IMG/VR virus record: IMGVR_UViG_3300009091_000066
Span: 1 to 22,265 of that record
Length of the DNA stretch: 22,265 bases
Direction: 5' to 3' (one strand)
Origin: a virus
Below are positions 1-21,840 of this stretch, piece after piece. The notes beneath the pieces are model-generated. The model was not told the origin of the DNA. It worked only from the letters and a program-made list of their open reading frames with translations, and made no database searches. Each line of letters begins with the position of its first letter. The stretch's first letter is position 1. A program made the position numbers and the translations under genes.

Positions 1-2646
1 GGAGTAGACTTGCTGTAAGAACCACCAAGCAGTCTTGACGTGGCCCTCTTTGACTATTACCTTGTTGTAGTCCCCTTCTACATGACTGAATAGTCGTATC
101 GCCATGGCGATTGCGACCCGAGCCAGCTTCTTAGAGAAGTCCGAGGACACTAAAGGAATGATTGGGTGATACATTGCTCTAGCCGTGTCTGATAGAACGT
201 CGATTAGGTGTTCGGCATTTTCTTCGAAGACTATCTGGTCTAACGAGTCTAAGTTTCGTGACCAAGCCCACAGCAATAGAGCACGACTGCTAATCGTGTC
301 GTATCGAGGTTCCTCTGGAGGAAACGCGGTGAGAATGGCTTCGATGTCAGTCATGTCTACTTCTTCCGAAGTTAGCATGAGAGCGAAGTCTAGACGCCTA
401 ACGTCTTCTGCTGTCCCAAATAGGCTCTCGAGTACATTGACACCGTAGCGCTCGTCTGCGAGCTGAGTTTGACCCCGATCTCCTCTACGTGGGTTAGAGA
501 GCCAAAGGATCCTCGTACGAGCGAGAGCCTCTCCTTGACGGATGTGGGTGATCTTTACCTTACCCTCTTCGCCTCGGACTGAAGTCATTTTGTTGATGTC
601 CTGTACAGATAAGCCGGACATCTCGTCGATGCATACCATACGTAGGTCGTTCTGAGGTAGCTGACCCCAAGTGTTAATCCATCCTATGCCGTCTACGTAT
701 TGCGTACCGCCTACCATGCCGGCAAACGTAGCAGCTTCCCCGGATAGTATCTTGCCTAAGCCATAGTGTTCGACAAGTTTAGCTGCTACTTTCGTCTTCG
801 CCGTACCAGTATCTCCTACGACTATCGCATCGATTCTTCCCTTTTCTTCAAGTCCTTTCCATTGGAATCGAAGAGCGGAGAACATCGTAATGTCCACAGC
901 CATATGTAGGAACTGCCTACTGTATATACGGGTGATATTCCTCTGTTGGTCTTCGTGAATGTCTTCCAGCTTATCGCGGATGCTTTGTCCTTTCTTAAGG
1001 CGGTACAGATTGTCTAGCTTCTCTGCCATGTCCGCGTTAAGTTTGAAGTTCACGACTTGGTCTTCTGTAGGGCTTAGCTCAGCCGCTACTATGATTCGGT
1101 TCTCAGTTATCGGGTGAGCATCGATCCATCCTCGTAGGTCGTACTGACCTCCAAGTCGGGGATACTCGTCATTCTCTTTCTGGAAGTAGTACGCGATATG
1201 CATACCGGAGGACTGCTGAACTCTCTCGTGCTGTACAGACTCTACTTGCAGGGTATGTACGTAGTATTGGGCCTCGATTTGGTATTCCGGTGATGTACAG
1301 TTGCCGGGAATCCCCCGCATCTCTCGCAGAAGAGTCTGCATCTGATTCTTCCTGGTAGCCAACAACAACGAATCCACTGAAGGCATTATTCGAGACACAG
1401 GCTCGTTGTGGAAGTTGAATACACACGTTCGACACCCCTTCTTGTCTGTCGATCGGTGCTTGCAGTCCCAACGAATTACTCTCGGGATGATAAGCGGGCT
1501 ATTAGCTTCGCCCACGACCTTGACCAGAAACTCTCTGGGGAAAGCTGTTCCAATTCTCGTTGGATCAACAGCAGTCTCGTCGAGGTCTGCTGGACTGTAC
1601 TGTTCAGGAAGTCCAATGCCTCCTGCAATTCCCGTAAGGATGTCCGGATTCTTGACTGTTGGTTCCGTAGAAGTGATAAGGTCGGCGAAGTCCTTGTGAG
1701 AGTGCTTGAGGAAGAAGAGATTGAGGTCGGTACCTTCTTCTGGAAGAACGATACGACGAACTTCCTTAGCCGAGTACCTAACGAGAAGAGTCTGAGCAAC
1801 TGTCTGCCCTCCTTTGATCCCGGCTTCATCTGAGTCGTAAACAACGCTGATCTTCTTGTCCCGGAGTAACTCAGGATGCGTAACGTATCCGTCTGCAACT
1901 CGTGGAAAGGATCCTGCTCCTCCTGTACCTGTGAAAGCACGAACCACTCCTTTGCTCATAGCGGAGATGGTATCCATCTCTCCTTCAGTTAGTACCCACC
2001 ACTTGGAGTCGTCCCACTTGAGCATTTCTTGCAAGGGCCAAAAGCGAGGAGGACTACCGAGCGAAGTAATACCTCCAGGAAGCGTATAAGAGATAACCTT
2101 ACCGGACCCCTCACGCCTGCTACTGTGCATTCGTACGTTAACGACCTGTCCCCGCGAGTTCTGTACCGGTAGTGTAGTACGGTATTGTTTCCGGTCGTAA
2201 CCGATTCGGAGTCTTTTGAGGACTTCACTGCTGAACCCTCGCTTGTCTATTAGGTACTCTTGATGTTCCTGGCTACCCCAGAGAGCATCCTCCCACGCCT
2301 GCAGTTGGTCTTCAGAGATGGGAAATACTCCTTTGAAGGAGTTCCCGGCTTCGAAGTAATCCCTTAAGTCGAGAGCGGCTCGCTGAGCAATCTCGAAGTA
2401 GTACTGAAGGAAGTGAACAGCATCTCCGCCTTCCTTAGGCCTACCTAGCTGGTTGCTGGGGCAGTCGGGCGCCTTACAGTGCCAGTAACCAGTCTTGATG
2501 CTGATGGAGAATGAAGGACTATCTTCCTTGTGGAACGGACATAGTATCTCCACGTTTCCATCTGGACGAGCTTTGCTCAGGTATGGCTCGAGAGGATAAG
2601 GAAGTACCTCGCCCCAGAAGCGAGTGTGATCCTTTATTCCAGGCAC
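1..2646 (-). CDS. Primase-helicase: CHC2/TOPRIM primase fused to MCM-like AAA+ helicase (3' end outside window)
   Basis: The frame stays open for 882 codons from a GTG at 2646 (2 nt after the stop of the RHH gene; an in-frame TGA lies just upstream) to the window edge, so the C-terminus is missing. The N-terminus has a DnaG-type CHC2 zinc finger (C36, H39, C57, C62, with CPFH followed by SPSFSI). A TOPRIM domain follows, with EGEMD at 221-225 and DSDEAG from 271. A middle region (about 300-590) carries cysteines C395, C405, C408 and perhaps C450 that could bind zinc as MCM N-domains do. The C-terminal half is AAA+ of MCM type: Walker A GDTGTAKT (611-618), Walker B CIDEM (D674, E675), sensor-1 asparagine N718 in LSNP, and an arginine-finger-like RRLDF at 750-754. 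Expected role: primer synthesis and replicative unwinding. Domain calls are strong; the absence of a DnaB/RecA-type helicase is the odd point. Confidence 0.9.
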   Translation of the reverse strand, partial: MPGIKDHTRFWGEVLPYPLEPYLSKARPDGNVEILCPFHKEDSPSFSISIKTGYWHCKAPDCPSNQLGRPKEGGDAVHFLQYYFEIAQRAALDLRDYFEAGNSFKGVFPISEDQLQAWEDALWGSQEHQEYLIDKRGFSSEVLKRLRIGYDRKQYRTTLPVQNSRGQVVNVRMHSSRREGSGKVISYTLPGGITSLGSPPRFWPLQEMLKWDDSKWWVLTEGEMDTISAMSKGVVRAFTGTGGAGSFPRVADGYVTHPELLRDKKISVVYDSDEAGIKGGQTVAQTLLVRYSAKEVRRIVLPEEGTDLNLFFLKHSHKDFADLITSTEPTVKNPDILTGIAGGIGLPEQYSPADLDETAVDPTRIGTAFPREFLVKVVGEANSPLIIPRVIRWDCKHRSTDKKGCRTCVFNFHNEPVSRIMPSVDSLLLATRKNQMQTLLREMRGIPGNCTSPEYQIEAQYYVHTLQVESVQHERVQQSSGMHIAYYFQKENDEYPRLGGQYDLRGWIDAHPITENRIIVAAELSPTEDQVVNFKLNADMAEKLDNLYRLKKGQSIRDKLEDIHEDQQRNITRIYSRQFLHMAVDITMFSALRFQWKGLEEKGRIDAIVVGDTGTAKTKVAAKLVEHYGLGKILSGEAATFAGMVGGTQYVDGIGWINTWGQLPQNDLRMVCIDEMSGLSVQDINKMTSVRGEEGKVKITHIRQGEALARTRILWLSNPRRGDRGQTQLADERYGVNVLESLFGTAEDVRRLDFALMLTSEEVDMTDIEAILTAFPPEEPRYDTISSRALLLWAWSRNLDSLDQIVFEENAEHLIDVLSDTARAMYHPIIPLVSSDFSKKLARVAIAMAIRLFSHVEGDYNKVIVKEGHVKTAWWFLQQVYS

Positions 2647-2648
2647 GG

Positions 2649-2885
2649 CTATTCAGAATCATCCGCAGCTGTGCCTTCCTTATCCTCGTTCGGAGGCGAC
2701 ATGATGTTGTTCTCTGCCCACTGGATCAGAACGAACTCACACTGCGACTTTAGTGACCGGAAGTTTGATTGCGCATACGCCTGAATGGCGTTGTAGACAT
2801 CGATCGGGACACGTATGTTGATCTGCCCCATAGGCAGCCTCATAGCCTGGCCACGAATCTTAACATGTGCCTGCGTCTCGGCCAT
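2649..2885 (-). CDS. Ribbon-helix-helix DNA-binding protein (Arc/CopG type)
   Basis: This 78-residue protein has a beta-strand (INIRVP, about 22-27) followed by two amphipathic helices ending near WAENN, the pattern of a ribbon-helix-helix fold. The tail is short and acidic. RHH proteins bind DNA as dimers and usually act as transcriptional repressors or plasmid/phage copy-control proteins. It starts at ATG 2885 behind AAGGGG, has its own promoter just upstream, and its TAG stop lies 2 nt before the GTG of the primase-helicase. It is therefore co-transcribed with the replicative enzyme and is a natural candidate regulator of it. The DNA target is unknown. Confidence 0.75.
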   Translation of the reverse strand: MAETQAHVKIRGQAMRLPMGQINIRVPIDVYNAIQAYAQSNFRSLKSQCEFVLIQWAENNIMSPPNEDKEGTAADDSE

Positions 2886-2949: not shown

Positions 2950-2976
2950 AGGAGAAAAAAAAGAATATTTTCTCCT
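2950..2976. repeat. 9-bp inverted repeat between RHH genes
   Basis: AGGAGAAAA (2950-2958) and TTTTCTCCT (2968-2976) form a perfect 9-bp dyad with a 9-nt spacer. It overlaps the stop of the upstream RHH gene and ends 1 nt before the -35 hexamer of the next promoter. It could be a weak minus-strand terminator (the spacer holds a T run) or a protein-binding dyad. No T tract follows the second arm. Confidence 0.45.
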
Positions 2977-3196
2977 ATACTATGTCCTCCGGACGGATAT
3001 CCACAGTTTCCTTCCACTCCTGCTCCTCTTCTTTTGCTCTTTGTTTCTCCTCCTGCTCTTTTCGGTACTGTCGAACCCACTGCTCAAGAGACCACACTAT
3101 CTGGTTTCTGAGAGACCTCATCTGCTGTACGGCAATTGCTTTCAACTCCTCTTTGAGGTCGTTTTCCAAAGCGATCATAACGTTAGATTTTTCCAT
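2975..3196 (-). CDS. Second ribbon-helix-helix protein with coiled-coil tail
   Basis: The protein is 73 residues from the third of three tandem ATGs (3202, 3199, 3196); AAAGGA sits 6 nt before the third. An upstream in-frame ATG at 3256 precedes the mapped promoter and is excluded. Residues about 5-45 show a short strand (NVMIAL) and two helices with SLRNQIVWSLEQW, an RHH pattern resembling the neighbour at 2649. The tail (about 46-65) is Lys/Glu-rich and probably helical or coiled coil. It likely binds DNA, perhaps the repeat-rich region directly upstream. The two RHH proteins may be distant paralogues. Function is inferred from fold only. Confidence 0.7.
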   Translation of the reverse strand: MEKSNVMIALENDLKEELKAIAVQQMRSLRNQIVWSLEQWVRQYRKEQEEKQRAKEEEQEWKETVDIRPEDIV

Positions 3197-3235
3197 CATC
3201 ATTCCTTTCTCTGTAAGTACAGATTTTATATCACC

Positions 3236-3264
3236 ATTATAATTGGAAGTTTTCATTCCTGCAA
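3236..3264 (-). promoter_or_regulatory. Promoter for the second RHH gene
   Basis: Minus-strand TTGCAG (3264-3259), a 17-bp spacer and TATAAT (3241-3236). Predicted transcription start near 3229, about 30 nt before the ATG cluster. Lies at the left edge of the noncoding region. Confidence 0.7.
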
Positions 3265-5471: not shown

Positions 5472-5933
5472 TTAGGTAGGTAGATCTGCATCCCCTCCGG
5501 GAAGCTCTCCGCCGCCTTCCGCCGCCAGAACGTCGGTGACGTTGTTGACTTCCGCTCCCTCGTAGATTCTCTTCCGGACCTTGACTCGGCAGATCTTCCC
5601 AGGGAGATCTGAGAGGAGCTGCTGAACACTGAAGGAGTCTGACGGGTAGCTCAGACTGTTCAGGTATCTCTTCAAGAACGGCTTGCCTTGCTCGGTCAGC
5701 ATCCAGTTCTGGAAGAACTTACGGTTCTCGTAAGGCTCCTCAGTGACACTGAACATGACCTTGATCATGGGGTTGCCCGACTCTTTGGCCTTCACGAACT
5801 CAGCTGTCTCGATGATGACGTTGTAAATGCCGGCAGGCAGGGGCTCGAACGTAGCTTCCTGAGTGTCACTCAGATCGATGACTAGATCGTCGTCGTCGAT
5901 GTGTTCGTCAGGTAGAAGTGGTGCAGGTGACAT
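5472..5933 (-). CDS. DUF669-like protein, possible ssDNA-binding partner of Sak4
   Basis: 153 residues from ATG 5933, which follows AGAAAGGA; upstream in-frame codons overlap the previous gene and lack a ribosome site. After an acidic N-terminus (DDDDLVIDL) it has a beta-rich core, PAGIYNVII, SGNPMIKVMFSV, RKFFQNW and VRKRIYEG, as in phage DUF669-type proteins that accompany recombinases. The C-terminus is Gly-rich with acidic residues (GGDADLPT), loosely recalling the acidic tip of SSB proteins. It directly follows the Sak4-type gene, fitting a role in coating ssDNA or loading the recombinase. Family resemblance is moderate; the SSB role is inference. Confidence 0.65.
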   Translation of the reverse strand: MSPAPLLPDEHIDDDDLVIDLSDTQEATFEPLPAGIYNVIIETAEFVKAKESGNPMIKVMFSVTEEPYENRKFFQNWMLTEQGKPFLKRYLNSLSYPSDSFSVQQLLSDLPGKICRVKVRKRIYEGAEVNNVTDVLAAEGGGELPGGDADLPT

Positions 5934-5946
5934 GTGATGTCCTTTC

Positions 5947-6798
5947 TTAAACGATGTCTGATGCGGCTTCCGTTTCTTTGGCTTCCAACTGCGGGCTTGA
6001 CAAGTCAAACAGCAGTCGGAAAATCATGTTCATGTCTGGGTTCTCCAAATAGCCTCCTAGCTTCCCTCCTCGATCTTTGGCCGTATACTTCCCAGAGGGG
6101 GAAGTAAGAAGTATACGCTTCAACGGATTGTTGTCTCCCGCCGGCTTCTCGGGATCGGCAGATGTGACATAGAGGTATGCCACGTTGTCGACATACGCAG
6201 GCATCTGCGAGGATAGTCGATCAGTAAGGAAAGGACCAACAGACTTCTTCTGAGTACGTTCATCTTGTACCACCGCGGCTAGAGCAGTGAAGATAGTATT
6301 CCTGGGAAGGTTACGTAGATCTCGTACCAGTCGCTTGATCCGATTGCCTGCGACCAAGTAGTGCTGTAACTGCGGTAGGTCAGGATCGACTTCCTCGGGC
6401 TTCAACAAACTAGCAGACATGACCACATCCAGTAAGGCCATCTGATAGGCATCAGTGAGGCTATCCAAGATAATGGTCTTGTACTTGCTTAGCTTGCCCT
6501 CGAGAAGACTGTTTACGATGGACAGTAACACAGTCCATCCAGTAACGTGGGAGCTATCAGCTACCTCGCCAATGGTCACTACATCGATGTCCATATGTTG
6601 GACTGTCTTCTTGCCTGCTTCGACGTCGATAAGCAACGCTGGTCTACCGAAGTCACTCTGATCCGCGGTCGCTGCTAGGTAGGTCTTGCCTACTCCCGAG
6701 TCTCCGTAGATAATCATGTTGACGAACTTGGTTGCTTCCCTCGCTGGCTTGATGTGGGGACCGAGATCGATCTTCGCGTGTTGCCCGTACGTAACCAT
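5947..6798 (-). CDS. Sak4-type RecA-like ATPase / phage recombinase
   Basis: 283 residues with a Walker A GDSGVGKT (32-39), Walker B IILD (D112) and the compact single-domain RecA-like architecture of phage nucleotide-binding proteins (AAA_24/Sak4). These promote single-strand annealing or strand exchange in phage recombination and replication-fork repair. The last 20 residues are acidic. ATG 6798 is preceded by AGAGGAG. The gene lies between a small unknown (85-nt overlap) and the DUF669-like protein, the usual company of Sak4 genes. An alternative reading is a generic phage AAA protein without recombinase activity. Confidence 0.82.
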   Translation of the reverse strand: MVTYGQHAKIDLGPHIKPAREATKFVNMIIYGDSGVGKTYLAATADQSDFGRPALLIDVEAGKKTVQHMDIDVVTIGEVADSSHVTGWTVLLSIVNSLLEGKLSKYKTIILDSLTDAYQMALLDVVMSASLLKPEEVDPDLPQLQHYLVAGNRIKRLVRDLRNLPRNTIFTALAAVVQDERTQKKSVGPFLTDRLSSQMPAYVDNVAYLYVTSADPEKPAGDNNPLKRILLTSPSGKYTAKDRGGKLGGYLENPDMNMIFRLLFDLSSPQLEAKETEAASDIV

Positions 6799-7288: not shown

Positions 7289-7784
7289 TTTGACTCCTGT
7301 CATAGCCGTCGGTCTTTCCATGCCAGCAGTCGTCACAGTACCCTCTATAACACTCCTCCAGAGCTATTGGATTTCCACAGGCAGTGCACGTACCCCGAAC
7401 ACTCGACACAACCGTGTAGTAAGGCATGCCTCCAGGTAGAGCTGGCCAGAGATCCCTAGGCAAAGGACAACAGACCATCTTAGTGGCCATGCCTAGCAAG
7501 AACAACTGCTCCATAGTCGCATGGAGGCCTGTCCATTGATGGTCGTACCTATCCATACAGGCGTTCAAGAAGGACATGCCGCCTCCGAGCTTCTCCTGGA
7601 AACTATCAGGAAGCTCAGATAGGAGTAGCTTGATCTCCTTCTCGTACGAGGCTAGCCGGCCAGGATGAAAGTGTACCGTAGCCAAGATTCCGATAGCTTC
7701 TACGTAGTCTGCCTTATCCTCTTCTTCGCTGAATAGACAGTCTCGGAAGATCGTGTCTACTCTGGATGCGTTTAGGTCACTCAT
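7272..7784 (-). CDS. Conserved phage protein with C-terminal zinc ribbon
   Basis: 170 residues. The pattern SRVDTIFRDCLF, FHPGRL, LGGGMSFLNACMD, WTGLHATMEQLFLLG and LPGGMPYY matches a conserved but uncharacterised protein that I recall from many Gram-positive phages. The C-terminus adds CTACGN and CDDCW (about 132-155), a CxxC...CxxC zinc ribbon. ATG 7784 overlaps the nuclease stop. The position among recombination genes suggests a DNA-linked job, but no catalytic motif is evident. Confidence 0.75.
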   Translation of the reverse strand: MSDLNASRVDTIFRDCLFSEEEDKADYVEAIGILATVHFHPGRLASYEKEIKLLLSELPDSFQEKLGGGMSFLNACMDRYDHQWTGLHATMEQLFLLGMATKMVCCPLPRDLWPALPGGMPYYTVVSSVRGTCTACGNPIALEECYRGYCDDCWHGKTDGYDRSQNGCTS

Positions 7785-9024
7785 CTCTCACATCCCCGTA
7801 GTAACCAATGCGCTCTACGTACTCCCCTGTACCGTACAAGTACTCGGTTATGTCCACACCGTCATTGAGAGCCAAGCACACTTCTTTGAAGTCACACCGC
7901 CACGTGCAATCCCAAGTAGGTGTTGGAACGATGTGAGTAGGTCTACGCATGTCGTAGTACTCATGCACGATACTCTTTCCGACGTGATCGATCTCGGCTT
8001 GAGAGTGTCTCACCCAAGTGATCCGTACATAGCCCTTACCCTGACGTTCCTTCTCGTATAGGTTGTCCAGCATGGCTATGTAGTCGGTATCAGCTCTACG
8101 GTGGATGTTCTGCTCTAGCTCTTCTAGAGTACCTTCCCAGCCTTCGAGTTGAGCGACTGTCTCAAGCCAAACATCAGGTGTAGTGTCAGTTGCCTTGTTA
8201 CAAGACACCCGTTTGCCTTGGTACACAATATCGGGAATCCTTGGCTTCTTCTTCCGAAGCTCGATGTAGACCACACCGAGATACTTGTCCTTCTTATCTC
8301 CCCCTCGTTGCTCCTGTTGCTTAGCCCAGATGTATGACGTCCACTGTTCGTCGAACTGCAGACGTTCTGGGTCTCGCATCTGTGCTACCGACTTGTACTC
8401 ACCCAGCCACAGGTTGGGATCTCTAAGATCCTCTGTGTCATCCATCACGAAGTCGATGTGGCCGTCGTAAGTTGCTCGCAGTCGGTTCCCTGAGCGGTAA
8501 TCGTAGAGTGGTACACTAAACGGTACTTCACTAGCGATTACCTTGAACTTGGCCACGCGCTTGTGCCAGAGCATGTAGGTGTGACACATAGCCAAGCCTA
8601 GCTCGAGTAGTCCGTCTAACTCTTCCTCTTGCTCAGGAGAGAAGCCCTGCCAATTCATCTTCTGGGCTAGATTCGCTCGAGCGACTTTCTGACAGATCTC
8701 GAACACCTCTTCTAGGTTGTCCACAGTTAATGGACCGCCGAGGTAGATGTCCTTCTCCCCCTGGGGCGTAGGATAGGACCACATTGTGCCAGTAACAGTT
8801 GGATTCGATACGACACAGTGGGCGAGGGCTTCGTGAAGGAGTTTGCCCAACCAGAGCTTGTCGTTAGGCCAGGCACGCTCGAGATTGAGCTGAAGAGGAC
8901 TAGAGAAGAACCACTTACGACGGCATTGCTTGAAGGCAGTCCTGTCACTGGTGTGGATGTGCAGGACCTTATGAGGCGGGTGAATTACAAGTGGGAGTAA
9001 GTTATGTCTTGGGATGTCGATCAT
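7777..9024 (-). CDS. RecB/Cas4-like PD-(D/E)XK nuclease with predicted Fe-S cluster
   Basis: 415 residues from ATG 9024, which follows CGGAGG. An ATG at 9072 is ruled out because the -10 of the promoter lies inside that extension. N-terminal TSDRTAFKQCRRKW, then H64 in LLHEAL, E166, D191 in GHIDF and E209-x-K211 in LGEYKS form the RecB-family nuclease pattern. Cysteine C34 plus C-x3-C-x5-C near residue 375 (WDCTWRCDFKEVC) gives four cysteines placed as in Cas4/AddB 4Fe-4S nucleases. Predicted to resect double-stranded ends, feeding ssDNA to the Sak4-type recombinase. No Cas genes are near. Confident in the fold; polarity and cofactor are inferred. Confidence 0.85.
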   Translation of the reverse strand: MIDIPRHNLLPLVIHPPHKVLHIHTSDRTAFKQCRRKWFFSSPLQLNLERAWPNDKLWLGKLLHEALAHCVVSNPTVTGTMWSYPTPQGEKDIYLGGPLTVDNLEEVFEICQKVARANLAQKMNWQGFSPEQEEELDGLLELGLAMCHTYMLWHKRVAKFKVIASEVPFSVPLYDYRSGNRLRATYDGHIDFVMDDTEDLRDPNLWLGEYKSVAQMRDPERLQFDEQWTSYIWAKQQEQRGGDKKDKYLGVVYIELRKKKPRIPDIVYQGKRVSCNKATDTTPDVWLETVAQLEGWEGTLEELEQNIHRRADTDYIAMLDNLYEKERQGKGYVRITWVRHSQAEIDHVGKSIVHEYYDMRRPTHIVPTPTWDCTWRCDFKEVCLALNDGVDITEYLYGTGEYVERIGYYGDVRDE

Positions 9025-9055
9025 GTTCCTCCGTTCAGATAACTGCTTAGCCATA

Positions 9056-9085
9056 ATTATAACATGGACCATGAGCCTCCTTCAA
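9056..9085 (-). promoter_or_regulatory. Internal promoter before the nuclease gene
   Basis: Minus-strand TTGAAG (9085-9080), 18-bp spacer, TATAAT (9061-9056) with TGT extended -10. Same class as 2919-2948 and 16125-16154. It allows the nuclease-Sak4 segment to be expressed apart from the long operon. Confidence 0.78.
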
Positions 9086-9103
9086 TGGGTGTTGGCTGTC
9101 CGA

Positions 9104-9445
9104 CTAAAACGAGATGTCGTCGCTCGCGGACCCTCTATACCCGAGTGACCCCGACTGATCAGGAAAGTGCTTGTCTCCTGGCTTGGCTAGAGCTTCTTTC
9201 TCTTGATACGCATTCACCGCGGCTACAATGAGTTTGTACCTCTCCTCAATTACTCCGTTAAGTGAAGACGAAGAAAAAGCAGGCTCCCGGAGTATAATTC
9301 CAACAGCTCCTCTAGTACCTACTTCGCGGACAGTATGAATTGTGTACTCGAGAGGAGGATCTACTTTATGATCGTACCCTCGAAAGGACTCTCGATTTGT
9401 CTGCTTAGCATGAGACTTGACATATTCCCATTTCTTACGTTCCAT
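9104..9445 (-). CDS. Small protein of unknown function
   Basis: 113 residues from ATG 9445 behind GAGAGG, overlapping the helicase stop by 11 nt; a GTG two codons earlier is possible. The N-terminus is basic (ERKKWEYVKSHAKQ), the middle may form a small alpha/beta fold, and the tail is polar (GSLGYRGSASDDISF), ending in acidic residues and Phe. An acidic-Phe end recalls SSB-like interaction tips, but that is only a resemblance. No family recognised. It sits between the SNF2-type helicase and the nuclease promoter. Confidence 0.6.
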   Translation of the reverse strand: MERKKWEYVKSHAKQTNRESFRGYDHKVDPPLEYTIHTVREVGTRGAVGIILREPAFSSSSLNGVIEERYKLIVAAVNAYQEKEALAKPGDKHFPDQSGSLGYRGSASDDISF

Positions 9446-11099
9446 TGTCACCTCTCTTCAGGATCAATTTTGCCATTTCCTGAATAGCCATCACCTCCGA
9501 CTTGATGTGTACCTTAGTCTTAATGACCTCAGTCAGTTGATCGTCGATGGTGCCAGGCGCAACCACTTCCGTACAAAGTACTGAATACGTTTGTCCCATA
9601 CGATATAGACGGTCGCGAGCTTGTAGGTTGTCGTCTGGTACCCAATGCCTGTCCGCAAAAACCACCAGATGACACTTATCCTGTAAGTTAAGGGATTCGC
9701 CCATGCTGGCAATTGTACCCACGAGTGCTCGGCATCCAGGATCACTTTTCCACTTCTCAATGGCAGAGTCTCGTTCGTCGACATTCATGCCTCCATGGTA
9801 GTACTGAGTTCTAGTTCCGAGTCGCTTAGCTATTTCTTGGGCTAGGATCTCCGTATGCTTCTTGTACCAACAGAACACCAGAACCTTCTCATCTGGTATA
9901 TCCTCCAAGAACTCAACGATAGCGTCCGTCTTAGCCGAAGGTACATCGAGCCCTAGAATTCGTGGGTCGGCGACGAGTTGTCGTAGCCTTACAAGCTGAC
10001 TACCTATGCTTGTTGCGTAGCGACTTTCCGGATCGGCAAGGTCATCAAGAGAGCTAATTCCTTGAAGATTGGTATGAAGCTCCTTGAACATGGAAGCATA
10101 TAGCTCTTTTTGTTCCTTTGCAAGCTCCACTTGAATGACGCGACTCGTTAGTGGGGGCAGCTGGGGTAGCATCAAACTCTTGTCTCGGAGGATCGTGTAC
10201 CGAGTTAGTATGTAACGGAGGACATTGACGTTCTTAGCACCGACGATCTTAGGGAACCCTGAGGGAGTAGTTTCGAATTCAGTGAAACGATTGACGAATT
10301 GCCAGTACGAGGTGAATCGATTTGGATCCAGTGAATTGAGAAGTGGCCACAGTTCTCCTGGTCGATTGCGCATGCCTCCAGAAGCAGTAAGCTCGAACAC
10401 AACGGGTATCTTCTTTGCGAGTAGAAGCGCTCCACGAGTCCTTGCCGCCTTTCTCCCGGTGAAGTGGTGTGCCTCGTCAAGTATCAAGGAAGCCCAACGA
10501 CGATTCGCCAAATGAGGAAAGTACTGTCCGCCGACACGTAGCATATCGTGGTTCACAATTACGGTGTCGGCCATCTGCGACAACGCGGCATGCCGCTGCT
10601 TCGGAGTTCCTGTTACCACTGCCACAGGGTGAAATGGAAGCCAATTATACGCTTCCGTAGACATCTCGTACTGCTTACCCTGTTTACAGACAATAAGACA
10701 AGGGTAAGCATTCATCTCGTCTACGGCAGTCATAGACTCGACTGTCTTACCTGTACCTGTAGGATTGAGGTCTAGAGCTCGTTTGAAGTGCTTCATGAAC
10801 ACGACGTCAGCCCGTTGTATAGGAGTCAGTAGAGTGCAGCCTTCTGCGTCTAAGGCCTCGCGCATCTTCGCGGCGTCACCAGTGATACTGAGGTCCTTCA
10901 TCAAGAAGAGAGTCACAGCGTCGTCTTCGTGGAGTACTGGGAGCTGCTTCCTCCATCGGTAGACTAACGTCGGCTCTGGAGGGAACGAGTAAGAACCCCC
11001 GCCTCTACGAGCACCACCACAGTTCTCAGCTTCGATGCGATCTTCCAGAGAGTCAGGGTGGAAAACTAGCCTGCTGCCGTCTAGGAATACTCTAGCCAC
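9435..11099 (-). CDS. SNF2-type SF2 helicase/translocase
   Basis: 554 residues, GTG 11099 overlapping the previous TAG. SF2 motifs in order: TPIQ at 92-95, motif I GTGKT (115-119), motif II DEAH (208-211), motif III LTASG (237-241), and motif VI QARDRLYRMGQ (493-503), the last being the SNF2/Rad54 signature Q-x2-R-x-(H/Y)R-x-GQ. Both RecA-like lobes are present with little insertion, the compact form seen in phage DNA translocases. It probably remodels protein-DNA or recombination intermediates and works with the resolvase and nuclease encoded around it. The start is uncertain because the ribosome site is weak. Confidence 0.88.
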   Translation of the reverse strand: MARVFLDGSRLVFHPDSLEDRIEAENCGGARRGGGSYSFPPEPTLVYRWRKQLPVLHEDDAVTLFLMKDLSITGDAAKMREALDAEGCTLLTPIQRADVVFMKHFKRALDLNPTGTGKTVESMTAVDEMNAYPCLIVCKQGKQYEMSTEAYNWLPFHPVAVVTGTPKQRHAALSQMADTVIVNHDMLRVGGQYFPHLANRRWASLILDEAHHFTGRKAARTRGALLLAKKIPVVFELTASGGMRNRPGELWPLLNSLDPNRFTSYWQFVNRFTEFETTPSGFPKIVGAKNVNVLRYILTRYTILRDKSLMLPQLPPLTSRVIQVELAKEQKELYASMFKELHTNLQGISSLDDLADPESRYATSIGSQLVRLRQLVADPRILGLDVPSAKTDAIVEFLEDIPDEKVLVFCWYKKHTEILAQEIAKRLGTRTQYYHGGMNVDERDSAIEKWKSDPGCRALVGTIASMGESLNLQDKCHLVVFADRHWVPDDNLQARDRLYRMGQTYSVLCTEVVAPGTIDDQLTEVIKTKVHIKSEVMAIQEMAKLILKRGDNGT

Positions 11100-11305: not shown

Positions 11306-11701
11306 TTACTTCTTCCAAAACTGCCACCAAGGAGCAGGCTTCGGTTCGGGTGCATATATGTCGAAGTTCAAACTTCCAGCAGCTATGTGGATGCGATCCT
11401 CAGTCGTCACCCATAGACTTCGGTCAAGATTAATTTCGTGACCCGCGTTTTGGCCTCCGACTCTATGCGTCCAAACGTTAGCACGTGCATAGAGTCGAAA
11501 TTCCCCTTTTCGAGGGAATTTGAACAGCCACATAATCTCAGTGGTATTGGTTCGATGTACTTTGCGTTCTTCCTTCTCTATTGGACCTAGCCGGAAGTAC
11601 TTGCGTCTAGTCACCCTGTCAAACTCGTCCTTTAGTTCTATCCATAGACCCTTACGATGCGGATCGAAGACTATAGACGGGTCCATCCATCCGGCTATCA
11701 T
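11306..11701 (-). CDS. Protein of unknown function, beta-rich
   Basis: 131 residues, ATG 11701 overlapping the resolvase stop as ATGA. The sequence alternates hydrophobic and polar residues (GLWIELK, MWLFKF, EFRLYARANVW) and is likely beta-rich, ending in a Pro/Trp/Lys tail (PWWQFWKK). The aromatic-basic tail could contact membrane or nucleic acid. I recognise no family. Confidence 0.6.
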   Translation of the reverse strand: MIAGWMDPSIVFDPHRKGLWIELKDEFDRVTRRKYFRLGPIEKEERKVHRTNTTEIMWLFKFPRKGEFRLYARANVWTHRVGGQNAGHEINLDRSLWVTTEDRIHIAAGSLNFDIYAPEPKPAPWWQFWKK

Positions 11702-12099
11702 AGAGTCTCCCTTGTAGTGGTCACGTAGTAGAAGGCTGCGTGGCGAATAGCGTCCCGCATGTGGGTGCTACCTTTCACCCAGAGACCGCACTTCCTGAGA
11801 TGGTTATCGGTCATTACCTGCTTCACCGATGCGGCCTGTTCTACAATGGGTATACCAAGTCGACGTGCGAACTCCTTGATGATTCCTATTACCTGTACGG
11901 CAGGGAACTCATCCCATACTGCTTGGTTCTTCTTCCATGGATATAGTCTCCAGGACTCGTATACGATGACGTCGGCCTCGTTGGTCTCGATTACGTTAGC
12001 TACCTCGTCCCATTTTGCCTCACCGCAGACGACGAGCTCTGGGCCATCGAAGAAGGCCCACCCAGTTGTTACTCCAGGATCAAAAGCTAGGACCCTCAC
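11698..12099 (-). CDS. RuvC-like Holliday-junction resolvase (RNase H fold)
   Basis: 133 residues, shorter than cellular RuvC but typical of phage versions. The N-terminus VLAFDPGVTTGWA puts the first catalytic Asp at D7 followed by the Gly-x-x-x-Gly loop. E48 in IVYESW is the second acidic residue and D116 in MRDAIRHAA, with H120, the C-terminal one. These enzymes cut four-way junctions, here needed for recombination intermediates or branched DNA before packaging. The GTG at 12099 is used; it overlaps the preceding small gene by 20 nt. Confidence in the family is high. Confidence 0.85.
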   Translation of the reverse strand: MRVLAFDPGVTTGWAFFDGPELVVCGEAKWDEVANVIETNEADVIVYESWRLYPWKKNQAVWDEFPAVQVIGIIKEFARRLGIPIVEQAASVKQVMTDNHLRKCGLWVKGSTHMRDAIRHAAFYYVTTTRETL

Positions 12100-16241: not shown

Positions 16242-16973
16242 ATGGCAGAGGGAAGCATTCAGCCAGCTGTTGCCGAGCTGGAGAGGGCGTATGCACACTT
16301 CAACAAGGAGTTGTTTGAAGGCGCCCTGCAGAAGCCAGTAGTTGTAACCATCCAAACTTCTGGCGCGTGGAAGAGTACCCTCGGATGGACAAGATACCTC
16401 GGTTGGGACAGAACTGAGGTTGAAGTGGATGAGGTAGAGGGCCTCGGAGCAACCACTTCCAAGAAGCTCGAGGTCAAGGATACCTATGTAGAGGTGAACA
16501 TCGTAGCAGAGGCACTGCTCAACGATCCCTACGGCACTCTTGTCCACGAGATGGTACATGTGAAGAACCACGAAGACGATATCCGAGACTGCAGTGCCAA
16601 CGGGTATCACACAAAGGCTTTCCAGGAAGCAGCAGAGAAGGCGGGACTGATAGTTACCAAGCATCCCGTAATGGGCTTCTCTCTAACTACCTGGGGAGAC
16701 AAGAGTCGGGAAGCAATGGTGTCGCTTCACCCCAACTGGGACGCTTTCAAGCTCGTCCGCAAAGACGTCACAAAGGCGTTTCCCGGAATGGCTGTTGATG
16801 GCACAGGAACAAAGGTGACAGTTCTTACTGGCGCCGATGGCCCTGGCAGTCGGGGCAAGGGTGGAGGGCCAAAGAAGTGGGCCTGCCCGAAGTGTGGAGT
16901 ATCCGTGTATAGCGGAAGAAAGGAGCTCAACCTGCTATGTGGAGATTGCAAAGAGTCCCTAGAGAGAAGGTAG
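16242..16973 (+). CDS. SprT-like zinc metalloprotease
   Basis: 243 residues behind AAGGAGGG. Zinc-protease motif HEMVH (102-106) with the third ligand probably H123 in GYHTKAF, as in SprT/Spartan-like proteins. The C-terminus has a zinc ribbon, CPKCG (215-219) and CGDC (233-236), which such proteins use for DNA or protein contact. Cellular Spartan degrades DNA-crosslinked proteins; the phage version's target is unknown. It heads a short plus-strand operon with its own promoter, set apart from all other transcription. Family is certain; substrate is not. Confidence 0.88.
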   Translation: MAEGSIQPAVAELERAYAHFNKELFEGALQKPVVVTIQTSGAWKSTLGWTRYLGWDRTEVEVDEVEGLGATTSKKLEVKDTYVEVNIVAEALLNDPYGTLVHEMVHVKNHEDDIRDCSANGYHTKAFQEAAEKAGLIVTKHPVMGFSLTTWGDKSREAMVSLHPNWDAFKLVRKDVTKAFPGMAVDGTGTKVTVLTGADGPGSRGKGGGPKKWACPKCGVSVYSGRKELNLLCGDCKESLERR

Positions 16974-18088: not shown

Positions 18089-18778
18089 TTATTCGAGCTC
18101 GTCCAGAATAGCCCATGTCTTAGGTCCTACGACGCCCAAGCCTTGCAACCCGCTCTTGAGCTGTAGCCAAACCACCGCCTTGCGAGTGGTTCGTCCGAAG
18201 ACTCCGTCGGGGATAAGTGGAGGTTGCCATCCTGCCTTGTTCAACAGGTTCTGAAGGAGCTGCACCTCTATGCCTCTACATCCCTGCCAGAGTGCTCGAT
18301 GGGTTACTAGGATAGGCTCCGAGCTAAGCTCTCCCAGATCAAGGTTTACTCGTCCCCAATGAATTCCAGGACGAGCGTTCTCTACAGCGACGGTAGTGAT
18401 TCGAGCTTCGTGGTTGTATCCCATCTCTCCAACTTCGCCGTTGCCAAGATAAGCGAACATGTGGTACTCAGGACTACCTAAGAACCCCATATCTCCTGGC
18501 TTGGAAGGTTGATCAATGGGAGTCGCTATGGCTGCCCACCCTCTTGCAGTTCGTCTGTCGCCTTTGGTGATAGGACGTCCGTTGAGGTAGGCTTCTGCGT
18601 ACCTGAGAGCCGCCCAGACGTCTCCGGAGCAATCCCCCTTTCTTGGATCGCTACCAACAGGATCTCCAACATCGAAGACTGGATCGGGTACTCCTGCGGG
18701 GTTACTCTCATAGCCCCACATGTAGGGGAAGCCTCGCATCTTGTACCAGGCTTCTCGGTGTTTGTCCGCCTTAGTCAC
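18089..18778 (-). CDS. Endolysin: NlpC/P60-like domain plus peptidoglycan-binding domain
   Basis: 229 residues from GTG 18778, which follows AAAGGAG by 6 nt; an upstream TTG at 18823 overlaps the previous gene and lacks a ribosome site. Cysteine C50 in GDCSGDVWAAL and histidine H106 in EYHMFAYLGNGE fit the Cys-His pair of NlpC/P60 peptidases; GDMGFLG between them is the usual lead-in to the His strand. The C-terminal part (about 170-229) is PG_binding_1 (IEVQLLQNLLNKAGW, DGVFGRTTRKAVVWLQ). Expected to cut peptide bonds in peptidoglycan at lysis; there is no signal peptide, so export needs the holin. An amidase-type CHAP fold is the alternative. Confidence 0.82.
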   Translation of the reverse strand: MTKADKHREAWYKMRGFPYMWGYESNPAGVPDPVFDVGDPVGSDPRKGDCSGDVWAALRYAEAYLNGRPITKGDRRTARGWAAIATPIDQPSKPGDMGFLGSPEYHMFAYLGNGEVGEMGYNHEARITTVAVENARPGIHWGRVNLDLGELSSEPILVTHRALWQGCRGIEVQLLQNLLNKAGWQPPLIPDGVFGRTTRKAVVWLQLKSGLQGLGVVGPKTWAILDELE

Positions 18779-18806
18779 AGTTAGCTCCTTTCTCTTCGTT
18801 TTCCCC

Positions 18807-19229
18807 TTAGGTAAATAGGGCAATCAATGCACCTATAATGGGGCCCACAAAATATCCGATAAGGCCGACAATAGAGGCGATACCCATCTTACGTCCTGTG
18901 TCTGTATCGCCCTTGGACTTAATTTCGTCTACGTCCTGGGCTATGTTATCCAGACGTAGGTCGATGTTAGATTCGACCTTCTCTAGTTCGGCTCGAGTAA
19001 CGAAGTGCTTAGTCTGGTCGCTAAGAGCGTTACGAAACTCGTTCATACCTTCCAGACGCTTTTCTATGGCAGTCTCGGCTTTGGTGAGGGCCTTATCAGT
19101 AGCCGTCAAGGCAGCGTTAATGGACTTCTCTTGGGCCTTGAACTGAATATCTATCCGCTTCTCGAATTCGTCAAGAATACGAGTGAGCATTATTTCAAGA
19201 CTGCCTACGGTAAAGTCTGATGGAGTCAT
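18807..19229 (-). CDS. Coiled-coil protein with C-terminal membrane span (DUF7201-like)
   Basis: 140 residues. Ala/Lys/Glu-rich repeats (QEKSINAALTATDKALTKAETAIEK broken over residues about 32-58, then NEFRNALSDQ) are typical of a phage family I know as DUF7201 that sits beside lysis genes; the C-terminus (about 115-140, IVGLIGYFVGPIIGALIAL) is a single membrane helix. Possibly a spanin-, holin- or antiholin-like partner, or a tail-associated membrane anchor. ATG 19229 overlaps the stop of the 40-residue peptide (ATGA). Confidence 0.7.
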   Translation of the reverse strand: MTPSDFTVGSLEIMLTRILDEFEKRIDIQFKAQEKSINAALTATDKALTKAETAIEKRLEGMNEFRNALSDQTKHFVTRAELEKVESNIDLRLDNIAQDVDEIKSKGDTDTGRKMGIASIVGLIGYFVGPIIGALIALFT

Positions 19230-19362: not shown

Positions 19363-21840
19363 TCAGCTCTGTGCTCGTAGGCGATCAATGGATCTTCTAA
19401 TAGCCATGTCAGCCTGAGCCTCGTCAAGTTGTTTGTCTCCCAACTCGAACTCGGTGACTTGTTCGCCAGGCTTATGAGTTATGGTCATAGGGCCTAAACT
19501 AATGTCCGTTACACCGACAGAAGTCAGTTGTACCGGGAACCTGGACAGTGTAGGTGGGTTAACTATCCCACGAACTTGTAAGTCAGGTACATTAGTTCGA
19601 GTCCGGTTATTTATCGCCAGGGTAAGCATAGCGATGGTATCTGCGTCTTGGTAAGGCAGACTCTTGTCTTGGATGGCCATCGAGATGGGCTGCTCTCTAC
19701 CTTCCGACACTGCCTGAGTCTCTACAAAGGATTGACTTATAGCGTCCGCGGAGTTTGCTGCGGTAGATCCTAGAGGCTGTAGAGACTCGAACCAAACTTC
19801 CAAAGTCCATGTATGCCCTTCAGTGAGTACTACGGCTCCTGCGGGATCGTACAACATAGCTCGCAGATGGATCCAGTGTACATTGGCTGGATCAAACAAG
19901 GTATCTCCTGCCTCGTTCTCTGTCTGTCTAGTCTTGCTATACATCTCCCACTTAGTTGGAGTCCAACCAGTTCCCATAATTTGGTTGGGGTTTAAGAAGG
20001 CACAAGCACTAGAGACCGCGGCAATGTCCGGACCTGGATATGCTCCTGTATGAAGTGCTAAACCGAGCCACGCAACGCTACGAGGAATGGCTGCGATTCC
20101 TTGATCGGTCGTTACTCGATACCTCACCCAGGCCCACAAGTAACCCCAGTACCAAGAGGACATATTACAAAGGACCGCAGGCACAGCTATGTAGCCCAAG
20201 TCTATATGATCTGGTATACTTGTCACAGTAGTTGACATGGTGTAAGACTTGGTAAACTTGATACTCTTTGTTCCCTCGTAGGGAGTCTTCTCCCCAGCAC
20301 TAATGACTACTCCGTTTCCGAAGTTATGCCACTTAGTTTCGTCTTCACACCACACTTCATCCCAATAGAACACTCCCTCAGGACGAGGTGTAGGCGTAGT
20401 AGTTCTGGAGTAGTATACCCGGTTAACATACATGGAACTATCTTGCTGCAAGGCTATTTCTCCCTCAGGAGTCAGTAACCTGCGTTCTGTCCCAGGAGTG
20501 TCTTCCTCCACGTCGTCGCGTAGTGCGTCCCACGCGGGCCAGTTTGCTTGATGACCGAAGTAGAAGTGCCAGACTCCTTCGATGCTTATTAGAGTCCACT
20601 GACACCCTGTTATCTCACAGAACTCGTCGAGAACGGTTCTAATAGACTTCCCCATACCTGACCAGCTGTGTAGAACTAGAGGACCGCCGTAGGTTCCAGC
20701 TGCCAGGGCTTGCCAAGTCTCTTGGTCGACTACTCCGCTTTCATGGAGGCCATGAGCAGTCTGAAAGGACTGCACAGCAGTAAGCGTCGCGGTGTCAAAG
20801 ATAGCGGTAATATCCAGAGAAGCTCCGTGAGCGTTGAGAAGGAATTGAGCACGTTCTACGTACAGCCCTTGAGCTCCGTAACTAAGTGTAGGCCACACAG
20901 GAATGGACTGAAGAATGCTTGGCTCTTCCACATGACATATGATTCCTGTAGGACACATTCCAGAGGGATTCTCTATCATGCTTCGGATAGCCATACCTAC
21001 TGTGGTGTTGTTCAGCTGCCACTCACAGGATATTTTGTCCCATTGAGCTGATGGGTCTTCACAGATGACTCTAGGAGCCTTTCCTCCCTCTCGAGCAGTT
21101 ACAGTTCCTCGATACTCCACAGCCTTACCGTCCTCATCCTTGATGACCAAGGCAAGCTCTTCGTCCTTGTATCCCCAACGAATTACCCCGCCGTAGGGCT
21201 GGGTAGCGGTGTAAGTAGGGAGCAAGATAGTGCCAGGAGCTGCAGGCTCTATTCCAGCATCTTCTCTGTACTGTCCGAATCCTGTAGTAAGTGACTCCCA
21301 CTTACGACAGGTAAGTCCACCAAGAGCGTACTCTGACTGTGTCTGAATTAAGTTGCAGTCTACATGGTATCCATGACCGTATTGCCACTCTAGAATTTGG
21401 GCCGCGTACATGCCTGTAGCCCAGGTGTTGAGCCACTCTAGAGGTGTCCAAGGACATAGAACACCTATTCGAGACCAGGTACCTATATGTTCTCCGTAAC
21501 CATAACAGTATTGTGCTACGGATGCGGCAGTGGCGTCGAATTCTATGGCAAAGTACACAGGACACAAAGTAGAAATACCCAAGGCAGTTAATGCGGCCAT
21601 AGCCGCAGTAGCGTCAGCGTCTCCTGCAGCCCATCCTGCAGCCGCTCTTGTAGGGTACAACCGCCACACGAACACGTGGTCTACCATAGCAGCCTTGGCG
21701 GAATCAAGCTCAGCTTCAGTAACCGAGGATAGAGTTCGAACAATGAAGTCTCTACCACAAGCTTTCATGGTATCAAAGAACTCGTCCCAGTCGCTGGGGG
21801 TTCCTCCGTACTCTATGCTTACGCCGTAGCGACGACTCAT
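19363..21840 (-). CDS. Tail hub-like protein with embedded DUF1906-like and peptidoglycan-binding domains
   Basis: 825 residues. Residues 1-190 resemble DUF1906, a glycoside-hydrolase-like TIM barrel (YGVSIEYGG at the start, VYFAIEFDAT with E100 and D102). About 205-310 and 385-470 look like two halves of a tail-hub fold (SMIENPSGMCPTG; KSIRTVLDEFCEITGCQWTL), with a PG_binding_1 domain (about 315-381) between them, as if inserted. About 488-690 is beta-rich, possibly carbohydrate binding, and the end (about 700-825, THKPGEQVTEFELGDKQLDE) matches the closing strands of hub proteins. It probably sits at the tail tip and locally opens the cell wall during DNA entry. Catalysis by the barrel is unproven; domain borders are approximate. 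Confidence 0.75.
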   Translation of the reverse strand: MSRRYGVSIEYGGTPSDWDEFFDTMKACGRDFIVRTLSSVTEAELDSAKAAMVDHVFVWRLYPTRAAAGWAAGDADATAAMAALTALGISTLCPVYFAIEFDATAASVAQYCYGYGEHIGTWSRIGVLCPWTPLEWLNTWATGMYAAQILEWQYGHGYHVDCNLIQTQSEYALGGLTCRKWESLTTGFGQYREDAGIEPAAPGTILLPTYTATQPYGGVIRWGYKDEELALVIKDEDGKAVEYRGTVTAREGGKAPRVICEDPSAQWDKISCEWQLNNTTVGMAIRSMIENPSGMCPTGIICHVEEPSILQSIPVWPTLSYGAQGLYVERAQFLLNAHGASLDITAIFDTATLTAVQSFQTAHGLHESGVVDQETWQALAAGTYGGPLVLHSWSGMGKSIRTVLDEFCEITGCQWTLISIEGVWHFYFGHQANWPAWDALRDDVEEDTPGTERRLLTPEGEIALQQDSSMYVNRVYYSRTTTPTPRPEGVFYWDEVWCEDETKWHNFGNGVVISAGEKTPYEGTKSIKFTKSYTMSTTVTSIPDHIDLGYIAVPAVLCNMSSWYWGYLWAWVRYRVTTDQGIAAIPRSVAWLGLALHTGAYPGPDIAAVSSACAFLNPNQIMGTGWTPTKWEMYSKTRQTENEAGDTLFDPANVHWIHLRAMLYDPAGAVVLTEGHTWTLEVWFESLQPLGSTAANSADAISQSFVETQAVSEGREQPISMAIQDKSLPYQDADTIAMLTLAINNRTRTNVPDLQVRGIVNPPTLSRFPVQLTSVGVTDISLGPMTITHKPGEQVTEFELGDKQLDEAQADMAIRRSIDRLRAQS

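Follow-up and report, generated by a model that had tools for sequence, protein, structure and literature searches.

Bacteria on the one hand and archaea and eukaryotes on the other use primases that are unrelated, and their replicative helicases are likewise unrelated; to our knowledge, the bacterial-type primase and the archaeal/eukaryotic-type helicase belong to separate lineages throughout cellular life. A viral fragment of 22,265 bases (record IMGVR_UViG_3300009091_000066, analyzed over its whole length and called the window here) raises the question of whether the two can be parts of a single enzyme, and of what such an enzyme would do. A first-pass annotation of this DNA had reported one open frame of at least 882 codons with CHC2, TOPRIM, and MCM-like motifs and had called the combination unusual.

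A DnaG-type primase and an MCM helicase in one reading frame

The frame occupies positions 1 to 2646 of the minus strand, a strand that the first-pass annotation had not given and that is shared by the whole replication module. It starts with a GTG at 2646 and runs through 882 codons with no internal stop; the contig ends before its 3' end, and the window copy lacks approximately 110 C-terminal residues present in relatives. All of the motifs quoted earlier were found, with EGEMD (residues 221 to 225) and DSDEAG (271 to 276) in the primase half and GDTGTAKT (611 to 618), CIDEM (672 to 676), LSNP (716 to 719), and RRLDF (750 to 754) in the helicase half. Pfam agrees, with matches above the gathering cutoff to CHC2 (residues 30 to 83; 3.9e-6), Toprim_2 (PF13155, residues 218 to 309; 1.2e-5), and MCM (PF00493, residues 571 to 722; 5.9e-8). 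The frame is a DnaG-type primase joined to an MCM helicase, and its parts are as follows (conservation is given for an end-to-end alignment of 62 sequences):

1..2646, minus strand: primase-helicase fusion gene, 882 codons, GTG start at 2646, 3' end absent
2398..2559, minus strand: CHC2 zinc-binding domain of DnaG type, residues 30 to 83, with C36, H39, C57, and probably C62 (Pfam PF01807)
2002..2340, minus strand: N-terminal subdomain of the DnaG catalytic core, approximately residues 103 to 215; fold match to DnaG over 103 to 338
1657..2001, minus strand: TOPRIM domain, approximately residues 216 to 330, with E223, D271, and D273 (Pfam PF13155)
1057..1599, minus strand: MCM N-terminal tier, OB-fold with zinc-finger-like insert, approximately residues 350 to 530, with C395, C405, and C408; aligned to SsoMCM
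1..1029, minus strand: MCM AAA+ domain, C terminus incomplete, approximately residues 540 to 882 (PF00493; fold Z 30.5 to SsoMCM)
793..816, minus strand: Walker A, GDTGTAKT, residues 611 to 618; G611 and K617 in 62/62
622..636, minus strand: Walker B, residues 671 to 675; catalytic E675 in 62/62
493..495, minus strand: sensor 1, Asn718; 62/62
394..396, minus strand: arginine finger candidate R751 (in EDVRRLDF); E747, D748, R751, D753, and F754 in 62/62

Identity of the two halves

When a profile of the family was compared with PDB sequences, the matches shown were to DnaG-type primases or MCM proteins only, and those to the first part included A. aeolicus DnaG (1.5e-28) and T7 gp4 (2.6e-11). 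With the whole protein as the query, MCM took up the structural match lists, so we modeled the primase half separately with AlphaFold2 (pLDDT 85.7); this model matched A. aeolicus DnaG with a Z score of 22.0 over 224 residues (matching region, 17 to 340), B. subtilis DnaG with 19.7, and T7 gp4 with 18.9. The first-pass annotation had allowed that the TOPRIM part might turn out not to be of the DnaG/Toprim kind, and both the profile and the fold speak against this; as judged from them, residues 17 to 340 are a DnaG-type primase with a zinc-binding domain and a TOPRIM catalytic core. The DnaG fold rules out an AEP primase identity for the window protein. A cellular DnaG orthologue can also be set aside, as the C-terminal DnaB-binding domain is absent and residues 340 to 882 are MCM.

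The helicase half called for more than a Pfam assignment. PF00493 gives matches in every one of the 14 control genomes, that of E. coli among them, and its matches in a Paenibacillus genome extend to loci detected by AAA_3, the model for MoxR, and to a ComM-like protein, which would be compatible with an AAA+ part drawn from another helix-2-insert clade (MoxR, Mg-chelatase/ComM, or a DnaC-like family), as the first-pass annotation had itself considered. We therefore rejected a PF00493 match by itself as proof of MCM and checked the call by hhalign, fold comparison, and phylogeny. By hhalign the helicase half scored 99.3% to archaeal MCM over 460 columns, compared to 16.4% to ComM and 1.3% to MoxR, the last two being thin profiles of one and two sequences, respectively. 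The matches shown for this part of the family profile against the PDB were all to MCMs (MCM2, 4e-11; SsoMCM, 2.9e-10), and a reverse search starting from SsoMCM recovered the phage proteins. We also predicted the structure of the window protein with AlphaFold2 (pLDDT 84.6), and in this model residues 343 to 882 matched the SsoMCM fold with a Z score of 30.5 and an rmsd of 4.1 Å over 447 residues; the SsoMCM alignment begins at its residue 96 and thus includes the OB/zinc N-tier, which is MCM-specific. The model has the two hairpins expected in an MCM, the helix-2 insert (strands 646 to 651 and 655 to 660) and PS1 (strands 696 to 700 and 704 to 708), together with the MCM-type Walker A and B, sensor-1 Asn, and Arg finger. 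The N-terminal helical A subdomain of MCM is not aligned in the fold comparison, and the primase occupies that position. For the C-terminal winged helix, a region missing from the window copy, a profile comparison of the relatives' C termini with archaeal MCM C termini gave only 0.8% by hhalign. On present evidence an origin in another helix-2-insert clade is refuted, and we give it scarcely any credence; on the profiles and the model, residues 343 to 882 or thereabouts are an MCM subunit consisting of an OB/zinc N-tier and an AAA+ motor. The profile search and structure prediction suggested by the first-pass annotation have thus returned DnaG for one half and archaeal MCM for the other.

Conservation of the catalytic residues

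Throughout the 62-sequence alignment the TOPRIM residues E223, D271, and D273 are unchanged, as are K617 (Walker A), E675 (Walker B), N718 (sensor 1), and the arginine finger candidate R751. The CHC2 cysteines C57 and C36 are present in 62 and 61 sequences, respectively, and the N-tier zinc cysteines C395, C405, and C408, the three ligands that could be located, in 61. Pfam CHC2 was matched in 46 of 60 relatives and DNAG_N (PF08275) in 6 of 60. The window copy is divergent: the nearest full-length relative in the alignment is 33% identical to it, and its branch in the tree is long. At position 701, within the predicted PS1 hairpin, it has His, whereas Lys is found there in 51 of 62 relatives. 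By the catalytic residues, the active sites of primase and helicase are intact, and both enzymes look active.

Distribution among phages

A tblastn search of annotated phages returned 56 records, in 47 of which one locus spans 80% or more of the query with 24 to 30% identity, from phages of Microbacterium, Bacillus, Weizmannia, Arthrobacter, and Paenibacillus. The Microbacterium phages Krampus and Pharpay, Arthrobacter phage Wollypog, Bacillus phages BSTP12/BSP7, and Weizmannia phage Youna2 encode the fusion over 97 to 100% of the query (28 to 30% identity), where it is annotated as "DNA primase" or "DNA primase/helicase" with no MCM designation. A single-sequence search of viral contigs gave no match; with an alignment as the query, a profile search of IMG/VR found 170 viral contigs that encode relatives, of which the best 80 were retrieved for study. 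Full-length relatives in the phage genomes are proteins of about 930 to 1005 amino acids and are longer at the C terminus than the window copy, by the approximately 110 residues that it lacks. The combination is unusual, as described earlier, but the fusion is old, widespread in phages, and already present in GenBank under generic names. That the gene runs off the end of the contig might point to an artefact of assembly or gene calling; however, the frame is free of stops, and dozens of phages sequenced independently encode full-length, co-linear fusions, which exclude chance and chimerism, so that an artefact is refuted and its probability is next to nil.

In one relative (L086, near 9467) the gene appears to be split into a 519-amino-acid part with the primase and MCM N-tier and a 427-amino-acid AAA+ part, through either a frameshift or a true split. 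Six loci (L022, L024, L027, L037, L057, and L081) have a free-standing CHC2-like protein of about 90 to 100 amino acids directly upstream of a fusion that keeps its own CHC2; this small protein may be a stand-alone zinc-binding domain that works in trans.

Different primases on one MCM backbone

Relatives of the helicase half also occur with an AEP primase, in phage vB_BboS-125, at Paenibacillus/Brevibacillus loci, and on Bacillus velezensis plasmid p3. They align to window residues 375 to 882 with 27 to 28% identity, and in a Paenibacillus relative an AEP domain (PF01896; 4e-10) replaces CHC2 and TOPRIM; the AEP domain was seen only in relatives such as P0002. In another record, L080, the gene at 7974 to 9842 encodes an MCM of this family without a primase at the equivalent position, with a DUF669 single-strand DNA-binding protein (SSB) gene on one side and queC on the other, and neither CHC2 nor Toprim_2 was matched elsewhere in the 45.8 kb of that record. 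We built an AAA+ tree that includes archaeal MCMs, with eukaryotic MCMs left out. The phage proteins, the AEP relatives, and L080 group in a single clade (100/100) whose stem is very long; within it the AEP members form a subclade (98/94), and L080 falls among the TOPRIM members, so that it has most simply lost its primase. The tree gives neither the place of the phage clade among archaeal MCMs nor the ancestral primase. By alignment and phylogeny, relatives with a DnaG primase, an AEP primase, or no primase share one MCM backbone.

The replication module

Upstream of the fusion lie the following genes of the window, among which the order of SNF2 helicase, exonuclease, Sak4, and DUF669 SSB recurs in relatives:

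2649..2885, minus strand: small ribbon-helix-helix (Arc-like) protein, ending 2 bp before the primase start (PF03869, E 0.005, weak and below the cutoff)
2975-3256, minus strand: second small ribbon-helix-helix-like gene, directly upstream of the fusion together with 2649-2885
5472..6008, minus strand: DUF669/single-strand DNA-binding protein (PF05037, 4e-10; phrog_378, 3.3e-15)
5947..6798, minus strand: Sak4-like RecA-fold recombinase (phrog_124, 1.2e-47; PF13479, 2.1e-26)
7777..9072, minus strand: PD-(D/E)XK (Cas4/RecB-like) exonuclease (phrog_1218, 7.2e-38; PF12705)
9435..11099, minus strand: SNF2-type helicase (PF00176 and PF00271; phrog_62, 2.2e-86)
11698..12099, minus strand: putative RuvC-like Holliday junction resolvase (phrog_1770, 2.3e-6; phrog_159, 5e-4)

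Where 6.5 kb or more of upstream sequence was available (57 loci), SNF2 is found upstream in 45, Sak4 in 29, and the exonuclease in 28. Most loci with enough downstream sequence encode a polymerase there, of PolA type in 30 and of DnaE type in 25. A DnaB-family helicase (PF03796) was found neither in 20 genomes or records of relatives nor in the window, with a model that matches all 14 control genomes. The window is a 22-kb fragment, and the other replication genes of this phage are therefore out of sight.

A ribbon-helix-helix-like gene also lies directly upstream of the fusion in L010, and the proteins encoded in this position may be an origin-binding protein or a regulator. The queC gene lies downstream of the fusion in L002 and L003, as it does of the MCM in L080, with other deazapurine-pathway genes also after the fusion in L002 and L003, which suggests 7-deazaguanine DNA modification in part of the family. 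Farther along the window, a minus-strand gene (19363-21840) encodes an 825-amino-acid protein with an Rv2525c-like glycoside hydrolase and peptidoglycan-binding domains, near an endolysin-like gene (18089-18823). A gene resembling SprT-like metallopeptidases (16242-16973; Pfam 7e-4, weak; phrog_6361, 1.3e-20) is among the few in the window on the plus strand.

Discussion

The DnaG-MCM fusion belongs with the known phage primase-helicase fusions and is not a new category; it is the pairing of parts that sets it apart. The T7 gp4/Twinkle proteins likewise have a DnaG-type zinc finger and TOPRIM core N-terminal to a hexameric helicase, but their motor is of RecA/DnaB type and moves 5' to 3', whereas that of the window protein is an MCM AAA+ domain for which 3' to 5' movement is expected. 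A T7 gp4-type primase-helicase was accordingly rejected as an identity for the window protein, with an MCM in the helicase half, no RecA/DnaB-type domain, and no DnaB_C match in the window. SsoMCM and eukaryotic MCM2-7 share the OB and zinc-finger N-tier and the AAA+ fold (Z of approximately 27 to 30) and have no fused primase, which in the window protein takes the place of the helical A subdomain. A precedent in layout and function is BcMCM, an AEP-MCM prophage protein of Bacillus cereus reported to have 3'-5' helicase, primase, and polymerase activities (cited in PMC4538821); the studies cited for it in PMC4538821 and PMC5862659 are those of McGeoch and Bell (2005), Samuels (2009), and Sanchez-Berrondo (2012). 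BcMCM, too, is a single phage protein in which the primase precedes the MCM helicase, but, by its description, its primase is of AEP type rather than DnaG/TOPRIM. The AEP-MCM proteins of vB_BboS-125, Paenibacillus/Brevibacillus, and p3 have the same MCM backbone as the window protein and a similar context (SNF2/DEAD helicase and PolA), with an AEP domain where the window protein has CHC2 and TOPRIM. In bacterial mobile elements, MCM is one of the helicases described as fused to an AEP primase; within the bacterial realm it was previously described only from bacteriophages (PMC5862659). We found no published description of a DnaG-MCM fusion in the literature searched, which did not cover the 2016 survey of viral replication proteins, and the published papers on Youna2, BSTP12/BSP7, and vB_BboS-125 make no mention of MCM.

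We think it quite probable that the window protein serves a tailed phage as its replicative primase-helicase. The computations behind this reading show the two folds, unaltered catalytic residues, a fusion conserved across phages, replication genes around it, and relatives without a DnaB-type match, whereas activity and polarity are what we infer. Six copies would assemble into an MCM ring translocating 3' to 5' along the leading-strand template with the N-tier first, and the ring would carry up to six DnaG-type primases. On the N-tier these would sit at the exit of the displaced lagging strand and make RNA primers in cis, which is the natural reading of a primase placed directly N-terminal to the OB/zinc tier. 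In the yeast/eukaryotic replisome, Pol alpha-primase occupies that same place: it is held on the N-tier of MCM, next to the zinc-finger channel from which the lagging strand is extruded (PMC10501992).

The recombination genes among the neighbors make a role in recombination-dependent replication possible, and a different division of labor could be built on them, in which the host replisome drives the main forks and the fusion serves in fork restart or recombination-dependent replication with Sak4, the exonuclease, SSB, and SNF2. The gene does share its cluster with the Sak4-type recombinase, DUF669 SSB, PD-(D/E)XK exonuclease, SNF2 helicase, and RuvC-like resolvase, and a restart role has been suggested for BcMCM (PMC4538821). 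Most complete or near-complete relatives, however, encode their own PolA- or DnaE-type polymerase downstream and no DnaB-type helicase, which fits a self-contained replisome, and we consider a restart enzyme to be unlikely. More doubtful still is a primase domain that no longer polymerizes RNA and acts only as a DNA-binding or tethering module. L080, an MCM alone with no DnaG-type primase match elsewhere in its record, indicates that the primase has been dispensable at least once, but the complete retention of E223, D271, D273, and the zinc cysteine C57 in diverse relatives, with C36 lost from a single sequence, argues against such a module, and we regard it as very improbable.

With a replicative primase-helicase as our preferred reading, we lean toward a broader proposal: the proteins would belong to a phage replisome class, widespread but so far undescribed, whose homohexameric MCM carries a DnaG primase as part of its N-tier, on a backbone that has exchanged non-homologous primases (DnaG and AEP) or lost its primase. 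One bacterial and one archaeal/eukaryotic replisome part are joined here in a single enzyme, whose relatives swap the primase and keep the helicase, and the interchangeability of replisome parts across lineages thereby becomes testable. The analysis also provides a precise name for a gene that in many phages, some of which grow on laboratory Bacillus and Microbacterium, has no annotation beyond "primase" or "primase/helicase", and the fusion offers a system in which a single polypeptide combines an MCM ring with priming of the lagging strand. If the proposal is true, these phages would have a natural "CMG-like" priming geometry built from a bacterial primase.
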